In this document: positions 29,806 to 50,913 of the stretch, piece by piece
How the letters are laid out: each line of letters starts with the position of its first letter
How positions within the stretch are numbered: the stretch's first letter is position 1
Assembly: GCF_000970025.1 (NCBI RefSeq)
Contig: NZ_CP009528.1
Location: 806,001 to 870,000, forward strand
Source of the DNA: Methanosarcina barkeri MS
Lineage (GTDB): Archaea > Halobacteriota > Methanosarcinia > Methanosarcinales > Methanosarcinaceae
Reading direction: 5' to 3'
DNA: 64,000 nucleotides
Position numbers and translations under genes: made by a program
Notes under the pieces: generated by a model
Database searches by the model: none
What the model was told of the DNA's origin: nothing
The model's input: only the letters and a program-made list of their open reading frames with translations

Positions 29806-29807
29806 AT

Positions 29808-29892
29808 CCATTTTTCATACAAATCCATTTTTCATACAAATCCATTTTTCATACAAATCCATTTTTCATACAAATCCATTTTTCACACAAAT
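29808..29892. repeat. 17-bp tandem repeat, five units
   Basis: The unit CCATTTTTCATACAAAT is repeated five times without gaps, the last with one change (CACAC). The array runs into the stop codon of the ABC-2 permease gene on the minus strand. Such perfect repeats usually vary in copy number between strains. Confidence 0.92.
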
Positions 29893-30608
29893 GCCTTCCT
29901 AAACTGATAAGTCCCGATAAGTACCATAACTCCGGCTCCTATGGCCAGGCTTATGAGTCCATGAACAGGTATTCCACCTTCAAACAGAGTTCTTGTGCTG
30001 TCTATTGCATAACTTACAGGATTGAGCCTGGCCAGAAACCTCAGCCATGCAGGCATGACGTCATATGGCATGAGTGCACTGCTGGTGAAGAACAAAGGCA
30101 TGCTGATCATGCTGTTAACAGCCGCATAGCTGTCATGGTCACTTAAGTACATTCCTATCATAGTTGAGAGAGCAGAAAAAAATACTGAAAACAAAAACAG
30201 TGTGAAATATATTAAAATTAATTGCACAGGGTTCAATATCCTTACCCCAAGAAGAGTAGCTATTATGAGTATCACAGTTGCCTGCATCAAGCCTCTTACA
30301 CTGATAAATAAGATTTTTCCATAAAGCATGCTTTCTCGTGGCGAGGGCATGGCAAGAAACTTATTCAAAAAACCCAATATCTTGTCGAAAATCATAAGAG
30401 ATCCTCCCTGCAGGGAAGAAAAAAGCATAGTCATGACAAGAATACCAGGGGTTATATATTCAAGGTAATTATCCGTAAACTTTGTTGGCAGGGCCAGTCC
30501 TACAAATATCAGCCAGGCTGCAGGCATTACGAGTGAGGAAATAACGGTAACTCTTCCTCTTAACCATTTTACAAGATCCCTCTCAAAATAGTAGTATACT
30601 GCTTTCAT
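29883..30608 (-). CDS. ABC-2 type exporter permease
   Basis: The 241-residue membrane protein has about six hydrophobic segments and the ABC-2 signature region around PSPRESMLYGKILFISVRGL near residue 88. It pairs with the ATPase encoded just upstream, whose stop overlaps its start by one base. Together they resemble drug or polysaccharide exporters of the DrrAB type. The C-terminus (QFRKAFV) ends inside a 17-bp tandem repeat. The substrate is unknown. It lies at the end of a gene string containing CobN and an ECF-like transporter, but may have its own function. Confidence 0.9.
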   Translation of the reverse strand: MKAVYYYFERDLVKWLRGRVTVISSLVMPAAWLIFVGLALPTKFTDNYLEYITPGILVMTMLFSSLQGGSLMIFDKILGFLNKFLAMPSPRESMLYGKILFISVRGLMQATVILIIATLLGVRILNPVQLILIYFTLFLFSVFFSALSTMIGMYLSDHDSYAAVNSMISMPLFFTSSALMPYDVMPAWLRFLARLNPVSYAIDSTRTLFEGGIPVHGLISLAIGAGVMVLIGTYQFRKAFV

Positions 30609-32278: not shown

Positions 32279-34276
32279 TTAACACTTTATCCCTTCAACA
32301 CTCCTGGAATTTATCTCTTCAACACTTCCTGAGTTTATCTTTTCAACACTTCTAGAGTTTATTCCTTCAACACTTCCTGAGTTTATCTCTTCAACACTTC
32401 CTGAGTTTATCTCTTCAACACTTCCTGAGTTTATCTCTTCAACATTTCTGGAAGTCAGCGTTTCCACAAGTTCTTTAACTGAAAAGGCATTGATTCCCAG
32501 ATGATTTGCAATCTCAACAACAGGGGGCTGGGTAAGCGAGGCCTTCTTGAGGGTTTCAGTGTCTTTTATAACTTCTTTTCCCTTTCCGTCTGCTATGATC
32601 TGCCCTTCATTCATTACTAGGATTCTTGTGGCATAGGACATAGCTACCTCAATATCGTGCGTGCAGAAAATCAGTGTCGAATTGTTGTTTTTGAAAAAAT
32701 CCATCATCTGTTCTATATTCACTTTATCTTGCCCTGTTGTGGGTTCATCGAGAAGAATAAGTTCTGGATTTATGGAAAGTACCGAAGCGACGGCTGTTCT
32801 GAGTCTTTGCCCTCTGCTCAGAGCTTGTGGGAGGTCATGCCTGAGAGGCAGAATTGACATGGCTTCAAGAGAGTTTCTTACTCTTTCCTCAACATTGCTG
32901 TACTTTAATTGAACAGGTCCAAACCTTACTTCTTCCTCAGCTGAATCACAGAAGAGCATAAGGTCAGGGTTCTGGAACACAAATCCGACCTTACCTGCAA
33001 AGGAGTATGGATTCTTGGGTCTAGTGTCCTCCCCAAAAACCCTCACACTTCCTTTATCTGGTTTGAGAATTGCTGCAAGGTGTAAAAGCAGGGTTGACTT
33101 ACCTGAGCCGTTCGTGCCCATAATCGCAACTCTTTCACCTTTACGGATTTCCAGATTTATTCCTTTCAATACCATCTTGTTTTTCTCATATCCTGACCAT
33201 AGGGCCTGAATGGAAATAATCGAATCATTGTTTTCAGAACCATTATCTCTATGAGCATTATTCCCATGAGCATTATTCCCATGAGCATTATTCCCATGAG
33301 CATTATTCCCATGAGCATTGTTTTCAGAATCATTATTTCCATGAGCATTATTTTCAACGGAAGCTTTCTTTGAACTGGTTTTCTTTGAACTAGTCTTGGT
33401 TACAGGATTTTTATCTGGATTCTGAATAAGTTGTTGAGGTATTCTATTATTTTCTTTAATTTCTCTGTCTAGTACAGCAAGAGCTCCGCTGACACTCAAA
33501 GGGCTGGCTTTAATTCCAAGGCTATGGCAGAGCTTGACTGGTTCAGGAATTCGAAGCCCTAGCCTGTAAAAGATCTCAAGATTATCAAAAGCTTTTGAGG
33601 CGGGCTGATCAAAGACTATTTTTCCATTGTCCATTATAACAACTCTGTCTACAAATGGTGCAAGCTCATGTAGTCTGTGTTCAACCAGCAGAATAGTTGT
33701 TTTCAGTTTTCTATTGAGTTCCCTTACCGTATTCAGGACTTCGTGCGTGCCCATGGGGTCCATCTGGCTTACAGGTTCATCCATGGCAAGGATTTCAGGC
33801 TCCATTGCAAGCATACTTGCAATGCAGATCCTTTGTTTCTGTCCACCGGAAAGTGAATTTGTCGAGTCCAGCCTGTGATCGGACATCCCTACGATTTGCA
33901 AGGCTTCTGTTACCTTTTTATCGATTTCTTTTTGCTCAAAGCAGAGGTTTTCAGGCCCAAAAGCTACTTCGTCCTCAACTATTGTAGAAAATATCTGGTC
34001 ATCTGGATTCTGAAACACAAGGCCTACTTCTTTCGAGATTTCCATCTGGTTTGAATCAGTGGTTTCCATCCCTTTGACTTTCACACTTCCAGATAATATT
34101 CCTCCAGATTCATGAGGAATGATTCCGTTTAATGTTTTTAGTAAAGTACTTTTTCCACATCCAGTAGGTCCTGTAAGGAGAACAAATTCTCCTTTTTCTA
34201 CTCTAAGGTTGATTCCCTTTAAAGTCGGTTCCGATCTTCCTGGATATGTATACCATAAGTCTTTGATTTCTATCAT
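32279..34276 (-). CDS. Fused double ATPase of an ECF transporter, repeat-rich
   Basis: Two ABC ATPase domains are joined in one 665-residue chain. Domain 1 (1-240) has Walker A GPTGCGKSTLLKTLNG, signature LSGGQKQRICIASML and Walker B ILAMDEPVSQMD. Domain 2 (about 350-590) has GTNGSGKSTLLLHL, a weaker signature ALSRGQRLRTAVASVL and LILLDEPTTGQD. The linker has a repeat of Asn-Asn-Ala-His-Gly units, and the C-terminus has seven copies of an eight-residue EEINSGSV-like unit. These tails are low-complexity additions not needed for the fold. It powers the ECF importer with the T and S-like proteins encoded beside it. Confidence 0.93.
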   Translation of the reverse strand: MIEIKDLWYTYPGRSEPTLKGINLRVEKGEFVLLTGPTGCGKSTLLKTLNGIIPHESGGILSGSVKVKGMETTDSNQMEISKEVGLVFQNPDDQIFSTIVEDEVAFGPENLCFEQKEIDKKVTEALQIVGMSDHRLDSTNSLSGGQKQRICIASMLAMEPEILAMDEPVSQMDPMGTHEVLNTVRELNRKLKTTILLVEHRLHELAPFVDRVVIMDNGKIVFDQPASKAFDNLEIFYRLGLRIPEPVKLCHSLGIKASPLSVSGALAVLDREIKENNRIPQQLIQNPDKNPVTKTSSKKTSSKKASVENNAHGNNDSENNAHGNNAHGNNAHGNNAHGNNAHRDNGSENNDSIISIQALWSGYEKNKMVLKGINLEIRKGERVAIMGTNGSGKSTLLLHLAAILKPDKGSVRVFGEDTRPKNPYSFAGKVGFVFQNPDLMLFCDSAEEEVRFGPVQLKYSNVEERVRNSLEAMSILPLRHDLPQALSRGQRLRTAVASVLSINPELILLDEPTTGQDKVNIEQMMDFFKNNNSTLIFCTHDIEVAMSYATRILVMNEGQIIADGKGKEVIKDTETLKKASLTQPPVVEIANHLGINAFSVKELVETLTSRNVEEINSGSVEEINSGSVEEINSGSVEGINSRSVEKINSGSVEEINSRSVEGIKC
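32287..32450. repeat. 24-bp tandem repeat coding the EcfA C-terminal tail
   Basis: About seven units of CTTCAACACTTCCTGAGTTT-type sequence (24 bp each) lie inside the 3' end of the double ATPase gene. The period is a multiple of three, so copy changes keep the reading frame. Confidence 0.9.
33241..33350. repeat. 15-bp tandem repeat coding the EcfA linker
   Basis: Units of CATTATTCCCATGAG, five codons each, code for the Asn-Asn-Ala-His-Gly linker between the two ATPase domains. Four units are near-perfect and others are diverged. Confidence 0.9.
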
Positions 34277-34284
34277 TGTACCAC

Positions 34285-34584
34285 AACCTTTCCAAGGGAA
34301 AGCTTGCCCGCAAACCTTTTGAGAAAAGGTTTGATCGAAAACCCCTTACGGCGACGTGATCAACCGGCGCAACGGTTGGGCTTGATCGAAAACCCCCGAG
34401 TAATGTCGCAATCCTTTCCAAATGAAAACCTGACCACAAGCCTTTTGAGAAAAGGCTTGATCGAAAATCCCCAAGTAATGGCAATCCTTTCCAAATGAAA
34501 GCCTGACCACAAGCCTTTTGATAAAAAGCTTGATCGAAAACCCTGAGTAATGGCAATCCTTTCCAAGGGAAAGCTTGACCACGG
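34285..34584. repeat. 73-bp tandem repeat array with conserved hairpins
   Basis: Units start at 34285, 34410, 34483 and 34555 with AA(T/C)CCTTTCCAA; the second and third are 73 and 72 bp, the first carries an insertion and the last is cut short. Each has a hairpin: AAACCTTTT-GAG-AAAAGGTTT, AAGCCTTTT-GAG-AAAAGGCTT, and a third with changes. The A-T to G-C change on both sides of the stem preserves pairing. CTTTCC...GGAAAG adds a smaller hairpin in the outer units. The array lies between the S-like gene and the double ATPase gene, so it is transcribed within the operon. Confidence 0.88.
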
Positions 34585-34590
34585 TTAGTG

Positions 34591-36168
34591 TCACTCTACC
34601 ACCTTCTTTAGTCTATTTCCAAGGCTTATTCCGAACCAGGTTCCTATGAAGGTGTAGAGGAATCCGTCGATCAGTAGATTTACAGCTATGTACCAGTTGC
34701 TGTAGAATAGTCTGTAGAGTACCATCCAGACACTGAAGGACACATATCCGCTGATCACGTCCGCAAATCCGCAAATAATTCCCATTCTCAACCTGTTATC
34801 TGGAGCTGGATTTTTGCCGGTTACACCTGCAACATACAACAAAAATTCCAGGATTATCGCGTTGATTGACAGTGTTATAAAAGTTATAGGTGTGAAACTA
34901 CCTGTTATGAAACCTCCAAGTAGAAACCTGACCATCATAAAAAGGCTTATAACTCCTGGTTTTGGAATCAGGACTACAAGAGAAGCAATGAGCATGTAAA
35001 GAAGAATCTCATTGAAGAGTCCTGTGAACAGGAAACTGAATGGTCCGAAGATTGCATGGGATAAATCCCACAGGATGGTCATAGGCAGGCTTATCGCTGC
35101 AAAAGAAACCGTGCCGAAAAGGGCAATTAGCACAAGATTGCGGGTTTTAAACCTGTCCATAATCTTCCTGGGTCTTGAGAAAAAAAATCCCAGGGCAGTA
35201 ATTCCGAGTAAAGAGGCGGCAAACGTAGTTATTATAGGTCCCCACCGCCTTGAGATTGCAGTAATTTTTTGATCTTTTGTTACTGCAATCCAGTCGGTGC
35301 CTGTGAGTTTTACTTTAACTCTGAGAAGGTAGTCTCCGCCCATCGCATCCGGAGATATATATATAGGAAGGCTTATCAGTGAACTTGATCCTGGAGAAAG
35401 GGTTACGGTGGCATAGCACAAGGTGTCCGCTTTCATTCCCATAATATCGGGCTTAAACGCTTTTACAGGTTCACCGGTTTTTATGTCAAGAATGTCATAT
35501 GTGACTATTACAGGAATTGTACTATTTCCGGCATTGGTAAGCTCTATTCCCATGTCAGTTGAAGTGAGTTCCTCTTTCTCTATCTTCAGGTCTGTAAACT
35601 CTAGCAGCTTTTTGAGTGCAGGGGATGTTTCCTGGACAACAAGGGTATTGGAAGGATGGCTGGGATCTCCATATCCGTCTTCGTCTGACGGTACTATGAG
35701 CTGGGATACTGAGACGTCATTTGCGACTTCTTCTTTTGAAGCAACTTTAAGCTGGGTTGTACGAACAATAGTATGTTTTGTTCCTTTAACATCAACAACT
35801 GCTTTTGCAGTTATGTTGTAAACCCCACAGGGGGTATCCGCAGGTATATAAAAGTCAACAAGCCTGTACCAGTCATCATACTCGGTCTGAAGTGAAAATG
35901 AATTCACCGAGGGCTCGTGAAGCACAAAACCTTTCGGTAAGTCAAGTTCCACTGTCACATTCATATTGCCGTCATAATAGCTTTCAAAGAAAAGATATGC
36001 AGAGAGCGTACTGTTCCCAACTGCAAGACCATTTCCTTCTACCCCGTGAGGAACCTGAATTGTGAATGTGGTCATATCTTCAGGTTTGAAATCCTCCTGC
36101 TGAACCTGTGCAGCTACGGGTTGTATGATTAACACAAGTACAAGGAGGAGAAAACCTATTTTTTTCAT
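34591..36168 (-). CDS. Membrane protein with secreted domain and S-component-like core
   Basis: This 525-residue protein has three parts. A signal peptide (MKKIGFLLLVLVLIIQPVAA) leads to about 270 residues of Ser/Thr-rich, beta-type sequence outside the cell, resembling NEW3/CARDB-type adhesive domains. After a membrane helix near residue 315 follow about six hydrophobic segments (from TRNLVLIALFGTVSF on) with the look of an ECF S-component. It sits between cobN and the ECF ATPase gene, so a role as substrate-binding subunit is likely. I do not know an S-component with such a large external domain. The cargo is unknown. Confidence 0.7.
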   Translation of the reverse strand: MKKIGFLLLVLVLIIQPVAAQVQQEDFKPEDMTTFTIQVPHGVEGNGLAVGNSTLSAYLFFESYYDGNMNVTVELDLPKGFVLHEPSVNSFSLQTEYDDWYRLVDFYIPADTPCGVYNITAKAVVDVKGTKHTIVRTTQLKVASKEEVANDVSVSQLIVPSDEDGYGDPSHPSNTLVVQETSPALKKLLEFTDLKIEKEELTSTDMGIELTNAGNSTIPVIVTYDILDIKTGEPVKAFKPDIMGMKADTLCYATVTLSPGSSSLISLPIYISPDAMGGDYLLRVKVKLTGTDWIAVTKDQKITAISRRWGPIITTFAASLLGITALGFFFSRPRKIMDRFKTRNLVLIALFGTVSFAAISLPMTILWDLSHAIFGPFSFLFTGLFNEILLYMLIASLVVLIPKPGVISLFMMVRFLLGGFITGSFTPITFITLSINAIILEFLLYVAGVTGKNPAPDNRLRMGIICGFADVISGYVSFSVWMVLYRLFYSNWYIAVNLLIDGFLYTFIGTWFGISLGNRLKKVVE

Positions 36169-36184
36169 TCCACTACCTTTTTTC

Positions 36185-39100
36185 TTATTTGAGGATTTTT
36201 CGGATTTCCTTCATTTTCGCATCCCAATCAGGGACATCTTCAGAACTAATTATATCAACAGCTCCACCCTGAAATTCTCCTTCTCCTGCCAGTTCTTCCA
36301 TCAAGCTCTCGATCTCAAGATAGGATTTTTTCAGCTTTTCAAGAAGCTCGGGGTCAGGCTCCCAGAGTCCTCTTGACTGCGCTTCAAGGAGCCGCCTGGA
36401 CATTTCCTCGAGGGCATAGGGATTGTTCTCTTCAAAAAAGCGGCGCATTTCTTCATCAAGCACGAAGGTCTTTGTGATATCATCAAAAATCCAGTCGTCC
36501 ACTTTTTGGGTGGAGGCCTCCCAGCCATAGACTCTTCCGACTCTTTTAGAAATGTCCTGCGCGCCTTTATATCCGTGCTGTTTCATGCCTTCAATCCATT
36601 TTGGATTTAAAAGCTTGGCTCTTACGACCCTTCGCATTTCATCAGCCATGTCTCGGATTTCAACGTGCTGAGGTTCTCGAGTATCGCCAAAGTAAACTTT
36701 TACATCTCTTCCGGAAGCCTGCTTGGCTGCAGCTGTAAAGCCTCCGTGGACCCCAAAGTAACAGCAGCATCCTAATAGGTCATACTCGTCGCTTACAACT
36801 TTATTAAAGGTAGCATCTACAGTCTTAAGGCTTGACGCAAGCTGAGTGTGAGCTTCCTTGCCTTTTACATCCTTTCCATAAGCATACCCATTCCAGTAAA
36901 GGAAGATGTCTGCCAGGTCTTTTTCGTCTTTCCAGGCACTTGCATAGACTGCAAGCTGAACTCCTGCCGAATAAGTCCCGGGTTTGCTCGAAAAGATCCT
37001 TAAAGTGGCATCCCTTGAATCCGCTCCTTCTTCAACCATCTGAAGGCTGTGTTTTCTTAGATAATTCATTTCCTCAGGTTCATCAAGAGAAGCCACAGCC
37101 TGGATTGCTTCGTCTATAACCTCAAGACAGTTTGGAAAATTGTCCCGTAGAATACCGGAAACTCGGACCGTAACGTCAATTCTGGGCCTGCTCAATTCTT
37201 TAAGGGGGATCACGGAGAACCCTTTCAGTTGTCCATTGTTTAGCCAGACTGGTTCAACCCCTATAAGGCTCATTATCTGGGCCATTCCTTCTCCATCAGC
37301 CCACATTACATCGTTTGCCATCCAGTAAAATCCCACATTCTCAGGGTACCGGCCTTCGTCTTCAATGTGCTTATTAATCAGAACCCCTGAGAGTTGCTGT
37401 CCTACCCTCCAGGCAGCTTTTGTCGGAATCCTTTTTGGGTCAAGTGAATAAAAATTCCTGCCTGTTGGCAGTACATCATCTCTTCCACGCATGATGAGGC
37501 CTGAAGGACCGGCAGGGATGTATCCTCCATCGAAACCGTGCAAAAGGGCTTCAATTTCAAGAGAGTCATCTATTCTGGATTCAAGGTCAAGGATTCTATC
37601 GCAGATCGAAGCGGCAGCCTGAAGAAGTGCGGGATTTATGCTCAGATTTTTAATTTCCTGCTTTTCAAAACCTTTTCCTTCAAAAATCTCTTCTATTATC
37701 CTGGTTGGCTCTATTTCAGAGTTATTTATCTCTTTGTTGACACCCTGTTCTTCAAATTTTTTTCCTTTGATATTCTGTTTTTCAAAGCTTTTTCCTTCAA
37801 AAATCTCTTTGATTATCCGGTCTGGCTCTTTTTCCGGGTTATTTATAAATGTTCTTATAAATTCTTTAGAGAGTGAATCTATCTCTTCAAGCAACTGTCC
37901 ATTTGATTTTCCGTTTTTGGAAATCCGGCTCTGGTCAGAGATCAATTCATCAAGGTCAAGTTCCAGAAGTTCTGCAATCAACCTTCTAATCGAGACTTTG
38001 TTTCCCACACTTCCCTGGTCATCATACCTTAAAATCGAGTTTATGAATTCAACTTTTTTCTCGCCTTCAGGCATCTGTCCGAAGATATGCATCCCGCTCT
38101 GGATCTGGGTATTCCTTATCTTCCCAAGAGCTTCATGCGCTTTTCTTACTACCTCTTCAAAAGGAGTCTGGTCATCGGCTTTTATCTCGGAATTCAGATT
38201 CGATTTTTTGATCTCATCAAGGATCAGGTGCTTCAGGGCATGCTCACGTCCCTTATCGTGTTTTGCCTGTTCGTATTCCCCAAGCAGCCTGTCAAGTTCT
38301 GCAAGGTTTTCATAAAGCCCTCCTGAGGTCATGACAGTCTGCATATGGTCTATCAAACAAGCAAGGCTCCGGCGTTTGGCAATTGTACCTTCCGGAGGGT
38401 TGTCAGAGTTGTAGATATAGAGATGGGGAATTGTCCCTATGCTTATATCAGGATAGCAATCTCCTGAAAGCCCAACCCCTTTTCCTGGCAGGAACTCAAG
38501 GTTCCCATGGGTCCCAACATGTACGAGCACATCGGCTCCAAAGGTGTTTTCAAGATATCTGTAGGTCGCAAGGTACTGATGAGTTGGCGGAACTTCCGGG
38601 TCGTGCAGGATCCTGCATACTTTCCCATCACATCTGGCACCTGCACATCCTCGCTTTGGCTGCACACAGACCACGGAGTTTCCATACTGTACTCCTGTCA
38701 CAACGAGTTTATTATCATATACCATGGCTGCAGGAATGCCGTCTACTTCTTCTCCAGGAGGGTTTCCCCAGCTCTCAATCACTCTTTGCTTTACTTTCGG
38801 GCTCAGGGTATTGAAAAATTTCTCATATTCTTCTTTTTCTACAAAATCAAGGGCTCCCCCGTTTTTTACGATCTCATTAATGGGAGTCCATCTGAACTCG
38901 GAAATTGCTTTTCTCTTGATAATGGTCTCAATAAGGTCTTTTCCGTTTTCAGGAGGATTAACGGTATAGCCTGCTTCCTGCATCCGGTTCAGTATCCTTG
39001 CCACGCTTTCGAGAGAATCAAGATTTGCAGCGTCTCCTACCGAACCTTCAACACCTGTGCAGGGTCTGTTGTGCAGGATAAAGGCGACTTTTCTCTGGTT

Positions 39101-40159
39101 GACCGGTTTTTTCCTGAGTTCGGTCCATTTTAAAATTCTGGATGCAAATTTTGAGCAGCGTTCTTCGATAGGAAAACGCCCCATGTAATTTCCTTCTTTT
39201 TTACCTGCTCCTATCATGATGGGTTCAATTCCGCCTTCAAACTCCGGGAGAGCCACACTCCATCCGATCTCAGTACTTAATCCCATTGACTCCTGCCACT
39301 CTTCAACAGTCATATAGTGTGAAGTTACAGGCTGGAAAACAGGGACGTCAAGCTTTCTCAGGACTTCTATGCCTTTTGCTGCGCACGATGCATTTCTCTC
39401 TTCGGTTTTACTGCTTGCAATAAAAAAAGGAGAAAGCTTTACAAGGCAATCTATAATGGGCCTGCCGTTTTCTATGAAATAATCCTCTATGACCTCATTC
39501 ATTCCCCTGCTTCCAAGTTCCTCATCTTTCAAGGAATATGCAAAAACAGGGACAATCGATAGGTTAAGATTTTCTAACTCTTTTATCAGTTTTTTCTCTA
39601 TCTCAAGTTCATTATTTACCCAGGAAGTTCGAGAGATAAGCAGTCCCACGGTTTTATCTTTCAAAGGCCCGTACCAGTTGAGATACTCTTCAACGTTTGA
39701 GAATATTTTCTCTGCATCCGGATGATATAGCCCATCCCATGGTATCTTTTCAGGAGGTTTTGTTTCAATCTCACATCCAAAAACTTCCTTTAAGAGATAG
39801 CGCAGCATATTGGCAAAGTTTTCCTGTCCTCCATAGATGATATAAGAAAAGCATGTAGCTGCAATCTCAAGTTTCACCGAAGAGAGGGTAAGTGAGGAAG
39901 GATCACTCCCTACACAGATTACAGGTACCCTCTTTTTTAACGGTTCAAGTTTTTCATAGAAATCTTCCCAGAAAGGGGTTGATGTATAGTATAGAAAGAC
40001 CGCATCCGCATGTTCGCATGCAAGAAGAACCTTCTCAGCTTCTTCCGGATTATCTTCCAGAATTTTTGAATAGTGGGCTTCAAGCTCTATACTAAGATCG
40101 TTGGCAGCTTTGCGGAGAGTGGGAATATAGGAATTCCATGTTATTGAAATAATTTTCAT
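36185..40159 (-). CDS. cobN: CobN-like metal chelatase large subunit
   Basis: The 1324-residue protein belongs to the CobN/BchH family, the large subunit of cobalt or magnesium chelatases that insert metal into a tetrapyrrole using ATP hydrolysed by ChlI/ChlD-type partners. Matching parts include RPCTGVEGSVGDAANLDSLE near residue 365, HVGTHGNLEFLPGKGVGLSG near residue 550 and PTGRNFYSLDPKRIPTKAAW near residue 910. A segment near residues 770-840 carries a 39-residue duplication. The fused ChlI-ChlD gene lies 4.6 kb away on the other strand. Methanosarcina makes corrinoids, not chlorophyll, so cobalt is the expected metal, but this is inference. GAGGAG precedes the ATG. Confidence 0.93.
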   Translation of the reverse strand: MKIISITWNSYIPTLRKAANDLSIELEAHYSKILEDNPEEAEKVLLACEHADAVFLYYTSTPFWEDFYEKLEPLKKRVPVICVGSDPSSLTLSSVKLEIAATCFSYIIYGGQENFANMLRYLLKEVFGCEIETKPPEKIPWDGLYHPDAEKIFSNVEEYLNWYGPLKDKTVGLLISRTSWVNNELEIEKKLIKELENLNLSIVPVFAYSLKDEELGSRGMNEVIEDYFIENGRPIIDCLVKLSPFFIASSKTEERNASCAAKGIEVLRKLDVPVFQPVTSHYMTVEEWQESMGLSTEIGWSVALPEFEGGIEPIMIGAGKKEGNYMGRFPIEERCSKFASRILKWTELRKKPVNQRKVAFILHNRPCTGVEGSVGDAANLDSLESVARILNRMQEAGYTVNPPENGKDLIETIIKRKAISEFRWTPINEIVKNGGALDFVEKEEYEKFFNTLSPKVKQRVIESWGNPPGEEVDGIPAAMVYDNKLVVTGVQYGNSVVCVQPKRGCAGARCDGKVCRILHDPEVPPTHQYLATYRYLENTFGADVLVHVGTHGNLEFLPGKGVGLSGDCYPDISIGTIPHLYIYNSDNPPEGTIAKRRSLACLIDHMQTVMTSGGLYENLAELDRLLGEYEQAKHDKGREHALKHLILDEIKKSNLNSEIKADDQTPFEEVVRKAHEALGKIRNTQIQSGMHIFGQMPEGEKKVEFINSILRYDDQGSVGNKVSIRRLIAELLELDLDELISDQSRISKNGKSNGQLLEEIDSLSKEFIRTFINNPEKEPDRIIKEIFEGKSFEKQNIKGKKFEEQGVNKEINNSEIEPTRIIEEIFEGKGFEKQEIKNLSINPALLQAAASICDRILDLESRIDDSLEIEALLHGFDGGYIPAGPSGLIMRGRDDVLPTGRNFYSLDPKRIPTKAAWRVGQQLSGVLINKHIEDEGRYPENVGFYWMANDVMWADGEGMAQIMSLIGVEPVWLNNGQLKGFSVIPLKELSRPRIDVTVRVSGILRDNFPNCLEVIDEAIQAVASLDEPEEMNYLRKHSLQMVEEGADSRDATLRIFSSKPGTYSAGVQLAVYASAWKDEKDLADIFLYWNGYAYGKDVKGKEAHTQLASSLKTVDATFNKVVSDEYDLLGCCCYFGVHGGFTAAAKQASGRDVKVYFGDTREPQHVEIRDMADEMRRVVRAKLLNPKWIEGMKQHGYKGAQDISKRVGRVYGWEASTQKVDDWIFDDITKTFVLDEEMRRFFEENNPYALEEMSRRLLEAQSRGLWEPDPELLEKLKKSYLEIESLMEELAGEGEFQGGAVDIISSEDVPDWDAKMKEIRKILK

Positions 40160-48429: not shown

Positions 48430-50913
48430 ATGGAGCTTGAACCTGAACATCTTTACAAACTGGATAAACTGGTCACTCTCCTAAGTATCTCAGAAGACCT
48501 TTCAATTGTGTTTGTGCGCTGCAATGAACCAGTTCTCTGCAATGCGCTCTATACGGAGACTGTTAAAAGGCTGGAAGGCGAACTTTTTATTTATGATATC
48601 AACATGAGTGAGTCTTCTCCTGATCTTTTGAAGTTGCTAAACGAGGCGAAAGCATCGGAATTATATACTCAAAACATAAAAGGAAATAAAAAGGTAGCAT
48701 TCTTCGTTTTTGGATTAGATAAAGCAATAGAGAAAAAGACCAGTGAGGGAAAATCTGAAGCGCTTCTTCTTTTGAATATGATGCGAGAGCGCTTTCTGAC
48801 CATTGAAAATCCTGTAATAATCTGGATTAACAGTATTTCTCTTTCAAAAATCCTCAAAGAAGCGCCGGATTTTTTTTCCTGGCGTACCACTGTCCTTGAA
48901 TTTGACATGAAAAAAGAAGAAGTTGTAAGAGCAGCTATTGATTTTGGTGACACGGAGCTTGAATCCTTAAGCAAAAAGGAACTTGAAGACAGGTGGGAGT
49001 ATTACTCTCGCCTATTGAAGGAATATCACGAAAAAGGAACAATTGATTCTCAAAAGTTTGCTTACTGGAATTACAAGCTTGGAATGATTAAATTGCTCAG
49101 AGGCTATTCTAAAGAAGCGATAACCTATTTTCAAGAATCTCTTAAAATTTCCCGGCAGATAGGGGATCGTCGTGGAGAATGCGCAGTCCTTGGAAAACTT
49201 GGGAATGCCTGTAGTGACGTTGGCGAAGTGAAAAAAGCTATTGAATATTATGAGCGTGCTCTTTTTATTTCACATGAAGTCGGTGATCAACACAGTGATG
49301 GAGTACTTCTTGGCAACCTTGGTAGTTCCTACCTCCATCTCGGTGAAGTTACTAAAGCTATCGAATATTATGAGCAGGCTCTTCTAATTTCTCGAAAAAT
49401 TGGAGATCGGCGTGGAGAAGGAATAAATCTTGGCAACCTTGGTAGTTCCTACCTCCATCTTGGTGAAGTTACTAAAGCTATTAAATATTATGAGCAGGCT
49501 CTTGTAGTTTCTCGAGAAATTGGTGATCGACGCAATGAGGGTGGGCTCCTTAGCAACCTTGGTAGTTCCTACTTCCATCTAGGTGAAGTTACTAAAGCTA
49601 TCGAATATTATGAGCAGGCTCTTTTAATTTCTCGAGAAATTGGTGATCGACGCGCAGAAGGAAATAATCTTGGCAACCTAGGTAGTTCTTATCATTCTCT
49701 TGGCGAAGTTACTAAAGCCATCGAATATTATGAGCAGGCTCTTGTAGTTTCGCGAGAAACTGGCGATCTGAATGGGGAGGAAAATCATCTTGGTAACCTT
49801 GCTAGTTTCTATTATTATCTTGGTGAGATGAAGAAGGCTCTTGGATATTATGAACAGGCTCTTTTAATTTCGCGTAAAATTGGTGATCGACGTGGTGAAG
49901 AAACTCACCTTGGTAACCTTGGTAACGCTTTGCGAAATCTTGGTGAAGTCACCAAGGCTATTGAATATTATGAACAGGCTCTTTTAATTTCACGTGAAAT
50001 TGGTGATAAGCGTGGAGAAGAAAATCATCTTGGTAGGCTTGGGGTTGCCTATAGTGATCTTGGTGAGATGAAGAAGGCTCTCGGATATTACGAACAGGCT
50101 CTTTTAATTTCACGTGAAATTGGCGATCGGCGTGGTGAAGAAACTCACCTTGGCGACCTCGGTAATATCTATAATGATCTTGGTGAAATTGCTAAAGCTA
50201 TTGAATGTTATGAGCAGGCTCTTTTAATTTCACGTGAAATTGGTGACCGACACGGAGAAGGAAGTCATCTGAATAACCTTGGTAACTCTTACTATCGTCT
50301 TGGTGAAATCAAGAAAGCTATTGAATATTATGAACAGGCTCTTTTAATTTCACGTGAAGTAGGTGATCGACATGGGGAAGGAAACCGGCTTGGAAATCTA
50401 GGCAACGCATACGAAGATCTTGGTGAATTTACTAAAGCGATTAAATATTATCAGCAGGCACTTGCAATTTCAAAAAAAACTGGATATCGGCGTGGGGAAG
50501 GACACCACCTTTGCAACATTGGTACTTCATACAGCAATCTTGGTGAATTCACTAAATCTATCGAATATTACGAGCAAGCTCTTATTATCTCTCAGGAAAT
50601 TGGTGATAGGCGCAACGAAGAATCAATTCTTGGTAATCTTGGTAGTTCCTATGGTTCTCTTGGTGAAATAAATAAAGCATTTGGATATTTTGAGCGAGCT
50701 CTTTCAATTTCGCGAGAAGTTGGTGATCGACACGGGGAAGCCAGATGGCTTTGCAATCTTGGCGTTATTTATCTGCAATTTGGTGACCTAAATAAAGCAA
50801 TTGAATTTCTCGAAATGTCTCTTCTAATAGGCAAAGAACTCAAAGATCCTATAATAATTGATTTGTGTGAACACCAATTAAACTCTCTTAAAAAACAAGT
50901 AAATAAAATTTAA
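48430..50913 (+). CDS. TPR protein with degenerate P-loop-like head
   Basis: The 827-residue protein has a globular N-terminal region (1-200) and then TPR repeats. The head has strand-helix patterning of a P-loop NTPase (SIVFVRCNEPVLCNALYTET, KVAFFVFGLDKAI, PVIIWINSISLSKIL) but no Walker A or B acidic residues, so it is probably a binding module. Fourteen 40-residue repeats of the GDRRGEGNNLGNLGSSY type fill residues 245-804. I chose ATG 48430, with AGAGGTG upstream. With the ATPase gene just before it, a two-component STAND-like machine is plausible. No effector domain is visible. Confidence 0.85.
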   Translation: MELEPEHLYKLDKLVTLLSISEDLSIVFVRCNEPVLCNALYTETVKRLEGELFIYDINMSESSPDLLKLLNEAKASELYTQNIKGNKKVAFFVFGLDKAIEKKTSEGKSEALLLLNMMRERFLTIENPVIIWINSISLSKILKEAPDFFSWRTTVLEFDMKKEEVVRAAIDFGDTELESLSKKELEDRWEYYSRLLKEYHEKGTIDSQKFAYWNYKLGMIKLLRGYSKEAITYFQESLKISRQIGDRRGECAVLGKLGNACSDVGEVKKAIEYYERALFISHEVGDQHSDGVLLGNLGSSYLHLGEVTKAIEYYEQALLISRKIGDRRGEGINLGNLGSSYLHLGEVTKAIKYYEQALVVSREIGDRRNEGGLLSNLGSSYFHLGEVTKAIEYYEQALLISREIGDRRAEGNNLGNLGSSYHSLGEVTKAIEYYEQALVVSRETGDLNGEENHLGNLASFYYYLGEMKKALGYYEQALLISRKIGDRRGEETHLGNLGNALRNLGEVTKAIEYYEQALLISREIGDKRGEENHLGRLGVAYSDLGEMKKALGYYEQALLISREIGDRRGEETHLGDLGNIYNDLGEIAKAIECYEQALLISREIGDRHGEGSHLNNLGNSYYRLGEIKKAIEYYEQALLISREVGDRHGEGNRLGNLGNAYEDLGEFTKAIKYYQQALAISKKTGYRRGEGHHLCNIGTSYSNLGEFTKSIEYYEQALIISQEIGDRRNEESILGNLGSSYGSLGEINKAFGYFERALSISREVGDRHGEARWLCNLGVIYLQFGDLNKAIEFLEMSLLIGKELKDPIIIDLCEHQLNSLKKQVNKI
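49162..50841 (+). repeat. 120-bp repeat array coding 14 TPR units
   Basis: Fourteen in-frame 120-bp units code the TPR array. Neighbouring units share long identical stretches such as CTTGGTGAAGTTACTAAAGC and TATTATGAGCAGGCTCTT, suggesting recent duplication or gene conversion within the array. Confidence 0.9.

Follow-up and report, generated by a model that had tools for sequence, protein, structure and literature searches.

A tandem array in an ECF transporter operon of Methanosarcina barkeri is probably a locally expanded copy of a dispersed REP/BIME-like palindromic element

The window analysed here is a stretch of 64,000 nucleotides from the chromosome of Methanosarcina barkeri MS (4,533,209 bp; the source genome, G000). 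Gene calls and family searches identified on its minus strand, in the order of transcription, genes for a CobN-like chelatase (36185..40159), an S-like membrane protein of 525 aa (34591..36168), a fused double ECF ATPase (TIGR04520; 32279..34276) and an ECF T component (CbiQ, PF02361; 31372..32265). The S-like protein matches no Pfam or NCBIfam family, and its gene is conserved in 23 of the 31 genus genomes, with 73-97% identity across 22 relatives. Since the neighboring junctions are tight (16 nt between the CobN-like and S-like genes and 13 nt between the ATPase and CbiQ genes), the 314-nt intercistronic spacer between the S-like and ATPase genes (34277..34590, assigned to neither strand) is conspicuous. 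It is filled by a repeat array, and its limits are given by the gene calls on both flanks and by relatives that lack the array or carry shorter versions of it. The gene calls and family searches agree with the first-pass annotation, made from the letters of the window, in placing the array between these two genes.

A published survey of satellites found tandem repeats to be unusually abundant in Methanosarcina genomes and ranked M. barkeri near the top (PMC6749651), and the window contains several besides this array. The double-ATPase gene includes coding tandem units of 15/30/45 bp (33226-33356), which encode an Asn-rich linker between the ATPase halves, and of 24 bp (32286-32448), which encode a C-terminal (SVEEINSG)n. 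Five near-perfect 17-bp repeats (29806-29892; 98% matches) lie at the 3' end of an ABC-2 permease gene (29883-30608) and just past it. At 49220-50731 a 120-bp unit is repeated about 12.6 times and may encode a protein repeat of the TPR type. The satellites in the available part of the above survey are short and coding repeats, unlike the dispersed palindromic family described below. The only Rfam match in the window is 16S rRNA.

Read on the plus strand, the first feature of the spacer is a small hairpin next to the ATPase start codon, detected by DNA folding (CAACCTTTCC-AAG-GGAAAGCTTG; 34284..34306) and of a type that most orthologous spacers within the barkeri branch share. The repeat search recovered next the first copy of a larger hairpin module, A (CAAACCTTTT-GAG-AAAAGGTTTG; 34311..34333), with an A-T at pair 4 and followed by ATCGAAAA, and pattern searches placed the exact genus-wide motif of a second module, B (GATCAACCGGCGCAACGGTTG), at 34358..34378. 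There follow, by both Tandem Repeats Finder and the repeat search, a 73-bp unit (34408..34480) with the second hairpin A in its G-C form (CAAGCCTTTT-GAG-AAAAGGCTTG; 34437-34459) and a 72-bp unit (34481..34552) with the third (CAAGCCTTTT-GAT-AAAAAGCTTG; 34510-34532). A partial last unit (34553..34582; repeat search and DNA fold) contains a small CCTTTCC/GGAAAG hairpin, which on the sense strand lies about 15 nt downstream of the stop codon of the S-like gene. Tandem Repeats Finder reports the array as 34380-34582, with a period of 73, 2.8 copies and 90% matches, while the repeat search recovered a 63-nt unit three times at spacings of 126 and 73, the first spacing being 126 rather than 73 because the extra module B lies inside it. 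Thus, the hairpin-bearing 73-bp units of the first-pass annotation are real, with lengths of 72-73 bp, but the stem is of 10 bp and not 9: all three hairpins A have arms of 10 nt and a 3-nt loop. The reported change of one pair on both strands is likewise present, pair 4 being A-T in hairpin 1 and G-C in hairpins 2 and 3. Hairpin 3 has an additional one-sided change, which would give a G-U pair if the minus strand is transcribed and an A-C mismatch on the plus strand.

The structure of the array exceeds what is expected by chance. Folded as single-stranded DNA the spacer has a z-score of -4.4, with none of 100 shuffles as good, while folded as RNA it has a moderate z-score of -2.1 on either strand; a profile search with the hairpin recovered 42 matches in the 800 kb of the source genome that were scanned, whereas an order-1 Markov control gave none. 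A CRISPR-like array was set aside, as the units are near-identical and have no unique spacers between them.

With the spacer as query, 63 matches were recovered from its own genome, at dozens of intergenic sites. These define a family whose members consist of one or more CAA...CTTTT/AAAA...TTG hairpins, one of them followed by GANCGAAAA, then a variable stretch, GTGATCAACCGGCGCAACGGTTG and short echoes of CAACGGTTG. The consensus of hairpin A is CAARCCTTTT-NNN-AAAAGGYTTG followed by ANCGAAAA, the conserved tail of the palindrome being A-N-C-R-AAA, and modules A, B and the small hairpins combine into clusters or mosaics of variable order. The source genome contains about 34 module-B sites (allowing up to 2 mismatches) and some 70 palindromic A sites, against 0-1 for reversed-pattern controls. 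Module B is present in 15 of the 31 genus genomes, mostly in 14-61 copies each, with 2 in G030, and has no copy in the remainder. The spacer found no match in 11 genomes of other genera of the order to which Methanosarcina belongs, and a pattern scan of GTDB recovered at least 120 stretches, which among the matches listed are all from Methanosarcina. As identical modules are found across the genome, an ECF-specific regulatory array is rejected. Instead, the array is probably one copy, expanded locally in tandem, of a modular palindromic element that is non-coding, dispersed through Methanosarcina genomes and similar to the bacterial REP/BIME repeats; on this account its hairpins need no dedicated regulatory role. 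A literature search, to which subscription journals were mostly out of reach, found no paper on this family.

Among 277 family copies, which are related and hence represent non-independent events, pair 4 is paired in 220 as against 123 +/- 7 by shuffling, and pair 6 in 244 as against 173 +/- 5; both pairs vary on both arms with double changes that retain pairing. This signal comes largely from three subfamilies (GCC/GGC, ACC/GGT and ACT/AGT). A form with a C-C mismatch at pair 4 (CAACCC...GGCTTG) is common, accounting for 37 copies, so that pairing of the stem is favored but not essential and a strict requirement for it is rejected. The same pattern could also arise, with no selection on function, if palindromes were subject to template-driven correction. 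Selection on a hairpin in the transcript should leave G-U in excess over A-C in the sense orientation; however, the family copies display no such excess (24 G-U versus 33 A-C). Likewise, they have no orientation bias relative to co-directional genes (43 opposite versus 35 same, p 0.43) and no excess of T-runs over A-runs in the sense strand (35 versus 32). Strand selection at the RNA level is thus without trace in these three tests, which favors a DNA-level, REP/BIME-like repeat over an RNA switch. The first-pass annotation had proposed that the array might control the ratio of the subunits, protect mRNA ends or be a REP-like element; the last is well supported, and the first two have no strand-specific signal in their favor.

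No cluster of the source genome overlaps an ORF (0/38), and across all genomes sampled only 2 of 166 overlap a called one. In loci picked for holding elements, delimited with a home-made gene caller and with orthologous sites of related genomes counted more than once, convergent gaps make up 40 of the 140 gaps with an element versus 50 of the 409 element-free gaps (odds ratio 2.9), and in co-directional gaps 58 of 79 copies lie closer to the stop of the preceding gene than to the start of the following one. The family thus prefers gaps between convergent genes and positions toward gene 3' ends. This preference, together with the stable stems about 15 nt from a stop codon, is what might be expected if the hairpins blocked 3' exonucleases and stabilized the upstream mRNA, by analogy with the REPs of Escherichia coli. 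Yet avoidance of promoters can by itself account for the position, and the sense strand does not prefer G-U over A-C, making such a protective function distinctly improbable.

The history of the array can be followed at the junction of the S-like and ATPase genes, which was compared in 23 genomes. Besides the source genome (317 nt in this comparison), module-bearing spacers are present in its nearest relative G031 (245 nt), in G014 (168), in G017, G041 and G002 (127 each), in G037 (133), in G036 (172), in G030 and, as a relic of 79 nt, in G001. The alignment of G031 with the source genome has a gap of approximately one unit. Loss of the stem in other strains had been named in advance as a finding that would speak against the hairpins, and across these spacers the stems persist while the length of the array varies. 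G038, the sister of G001 in the tree, has neither spacer nor modules, and at its junction (AAGGTGGCAGAATGATAGAAATC) the stop codon of the S-like gene and the start codon of the ATPase gene overlap as ATGA. The family is present elsewhere in the genomes of G016 and G032 and is missing from their S/ATPase junction. In the remaining half of the genus, which serves as the outgroup, the spacers are of 36-124 nt, consist largely of a ribosome-binding stretch (GGTGGYACAATGA-like) present several times over, and lack the element; eight such loci (L138-L145, from G033, G004, G015, G035, G009, G003, G008 and G034) have a junction that is largely a repeated ribosome-binding stretch (AGGTGGYACARTGA-like). 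There, the two genes have come to be separated in another way.

The tree requires one gain and one loss of the element in the barkeri branch, and the comparison shows a single acquisition at this junction, followed by change in array length and one clean loss, in G038. As all outgroups have some spacer, the empty junction of G038 is less likely to be ancestral than to result from a deletion between the direct repeats on either side. A stretch of about 12 bp similar to GTGGCAGAATGA lies on both sides of the element; duplicated copies of the motif are also present in the outgroups. When 800 kb of the source genome were compared with G031 and G014 (400 kb from each), the elements at comparable sites were nearly always common to both genomes and differed in length; therefore, no recent movement and no clean insertion boundary were seen among these near relatives.

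The likely local effect of the insertion is that the S-like and ATPase genes are parted by 314 nt. Given that the two genes overlap as ATGA in the element-free G038, the insertion probably ended or weakened a stop-start translational coupling between the S-like protein and the ATPase. The setting of the array, in an operon whose other junctions overlap or are below 20 nt, might alternatively suggest a co-opted internal attenuator, in which hairpins and U-runs end or process transcripts after the S-like gene and thereby lower expression of the ATPase and T genes relative to those upstream. Several ortholog spacers do contain U6-U7 runs on the sense strand, and in Methanococcus maripaludis internal terminators that set subunit ratios are documented (PMC10450193). 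Like the array, those terminators are non-coding, lie between genes of a single archaeal operon and could determine expression ratios, but they are established by term-seq mapping and mutational tests, whereas the array here is known from sequence and the longest sense-strand T-run of the source spacer is 5. Moreover, a scan for bacterial-type terminators found no terminator-like site in the spacer, and family copies are biased neither in orientation nor in T-runs with respect to transcription. The element has also vanished completely from G038, and the half of the genus that lacks it retains the operon. Hence, attenuation appears rather improbable. A tuned regulatory role for the array is possible, and nothing found favors one.

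Much is known of REP-like repeats in bacteria, in which they are linked to RAYT transposases. As a descriptive class REP/BIME fits the Methanosarcina family in its dispersed short palindromes, extragenic location and mosaic clusters. As in E. coli and Pseudomonas, these are many-copy intergenic palindromes that occur in mosaic or tandem clusters with other modules, lie near gene 3' ends and retain their stems by compensating changes. Unlike the bacterial repeats, the element is archaeal, has an AT-rich stem (CAARCCTTTT/AAAAGGYTTG) with no GTAG head and has units that are mostly head-to-tail, and no association with a RAYT was found. Mobilization of a REP/REPIN family by a genome-encoded RAYT or other Y1 transposase might be considered in light of the short intergenic palindromes, with hundreds of copies across genomes, and of the one full Y1 transposase gene in the source genome. 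It is rendered very improbable by the distribution of Y1_Tnp matches: the repeat-rich G014 and G041 have none, while G034 has 79 and no module B. None of the examined Y1 genes is flanked by modules, although in L119 a single module lies within 1.4 kb. In a published survey covering complete genomes, Archaea yielded only the IS200 subclass and no RAYTs (PMC6006769). The link to a RAYT is thus largely refuted. The palindrome is not accompanied by a head of the GTAG or CGTC type, and none of the examined Y1 loci holds a RAYT gene flanked by repeats, so that the element appears to behave like REP/BIME outside the REP-RAYT or REPIN systems. As a separate observation, many of the 79 Y1_Tnp matches of G034 have identical scores, suggesting a recent burst of IS200-type elements. 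MITEs are likewise dispersed inverted repeats that are non-coding and carry no gene; they would be recognized by target-site duplications and by terminal inverted repeats shared with a full IS, and the observation that bears on this here is the motif of about 12 bp on both sides of the array, which the outgroups also carry in duplicate.

We propose that copies of this REP/BIME-like element would spread as DNA, via a mobilizer or by recombination, and might persist where they do little harm, while the number of units would shift by slippage or unequal recombination. A more far-reaching proposal is that an archaeal family of this kind, without a RAYT, inserts time and again at gene junctions and alters expression there, in this case turning an overlapping, coupled pair into separately translated cistrons with the number of units tuning the ratio of the transporter subunits; this we regard as unlikely. 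That methanogenic archaea carry a palindromic family at high copy number, with no Y1/RAYT gene linked to it, prompts one to ask by what means such repeats spread, and close relatives differ enough in the length and presence of arrays for this to be tested. At the same time, the filled, shorter and empty versions of one operon junction offer a natural series on the effect of REP-like insertion on gene coupling.
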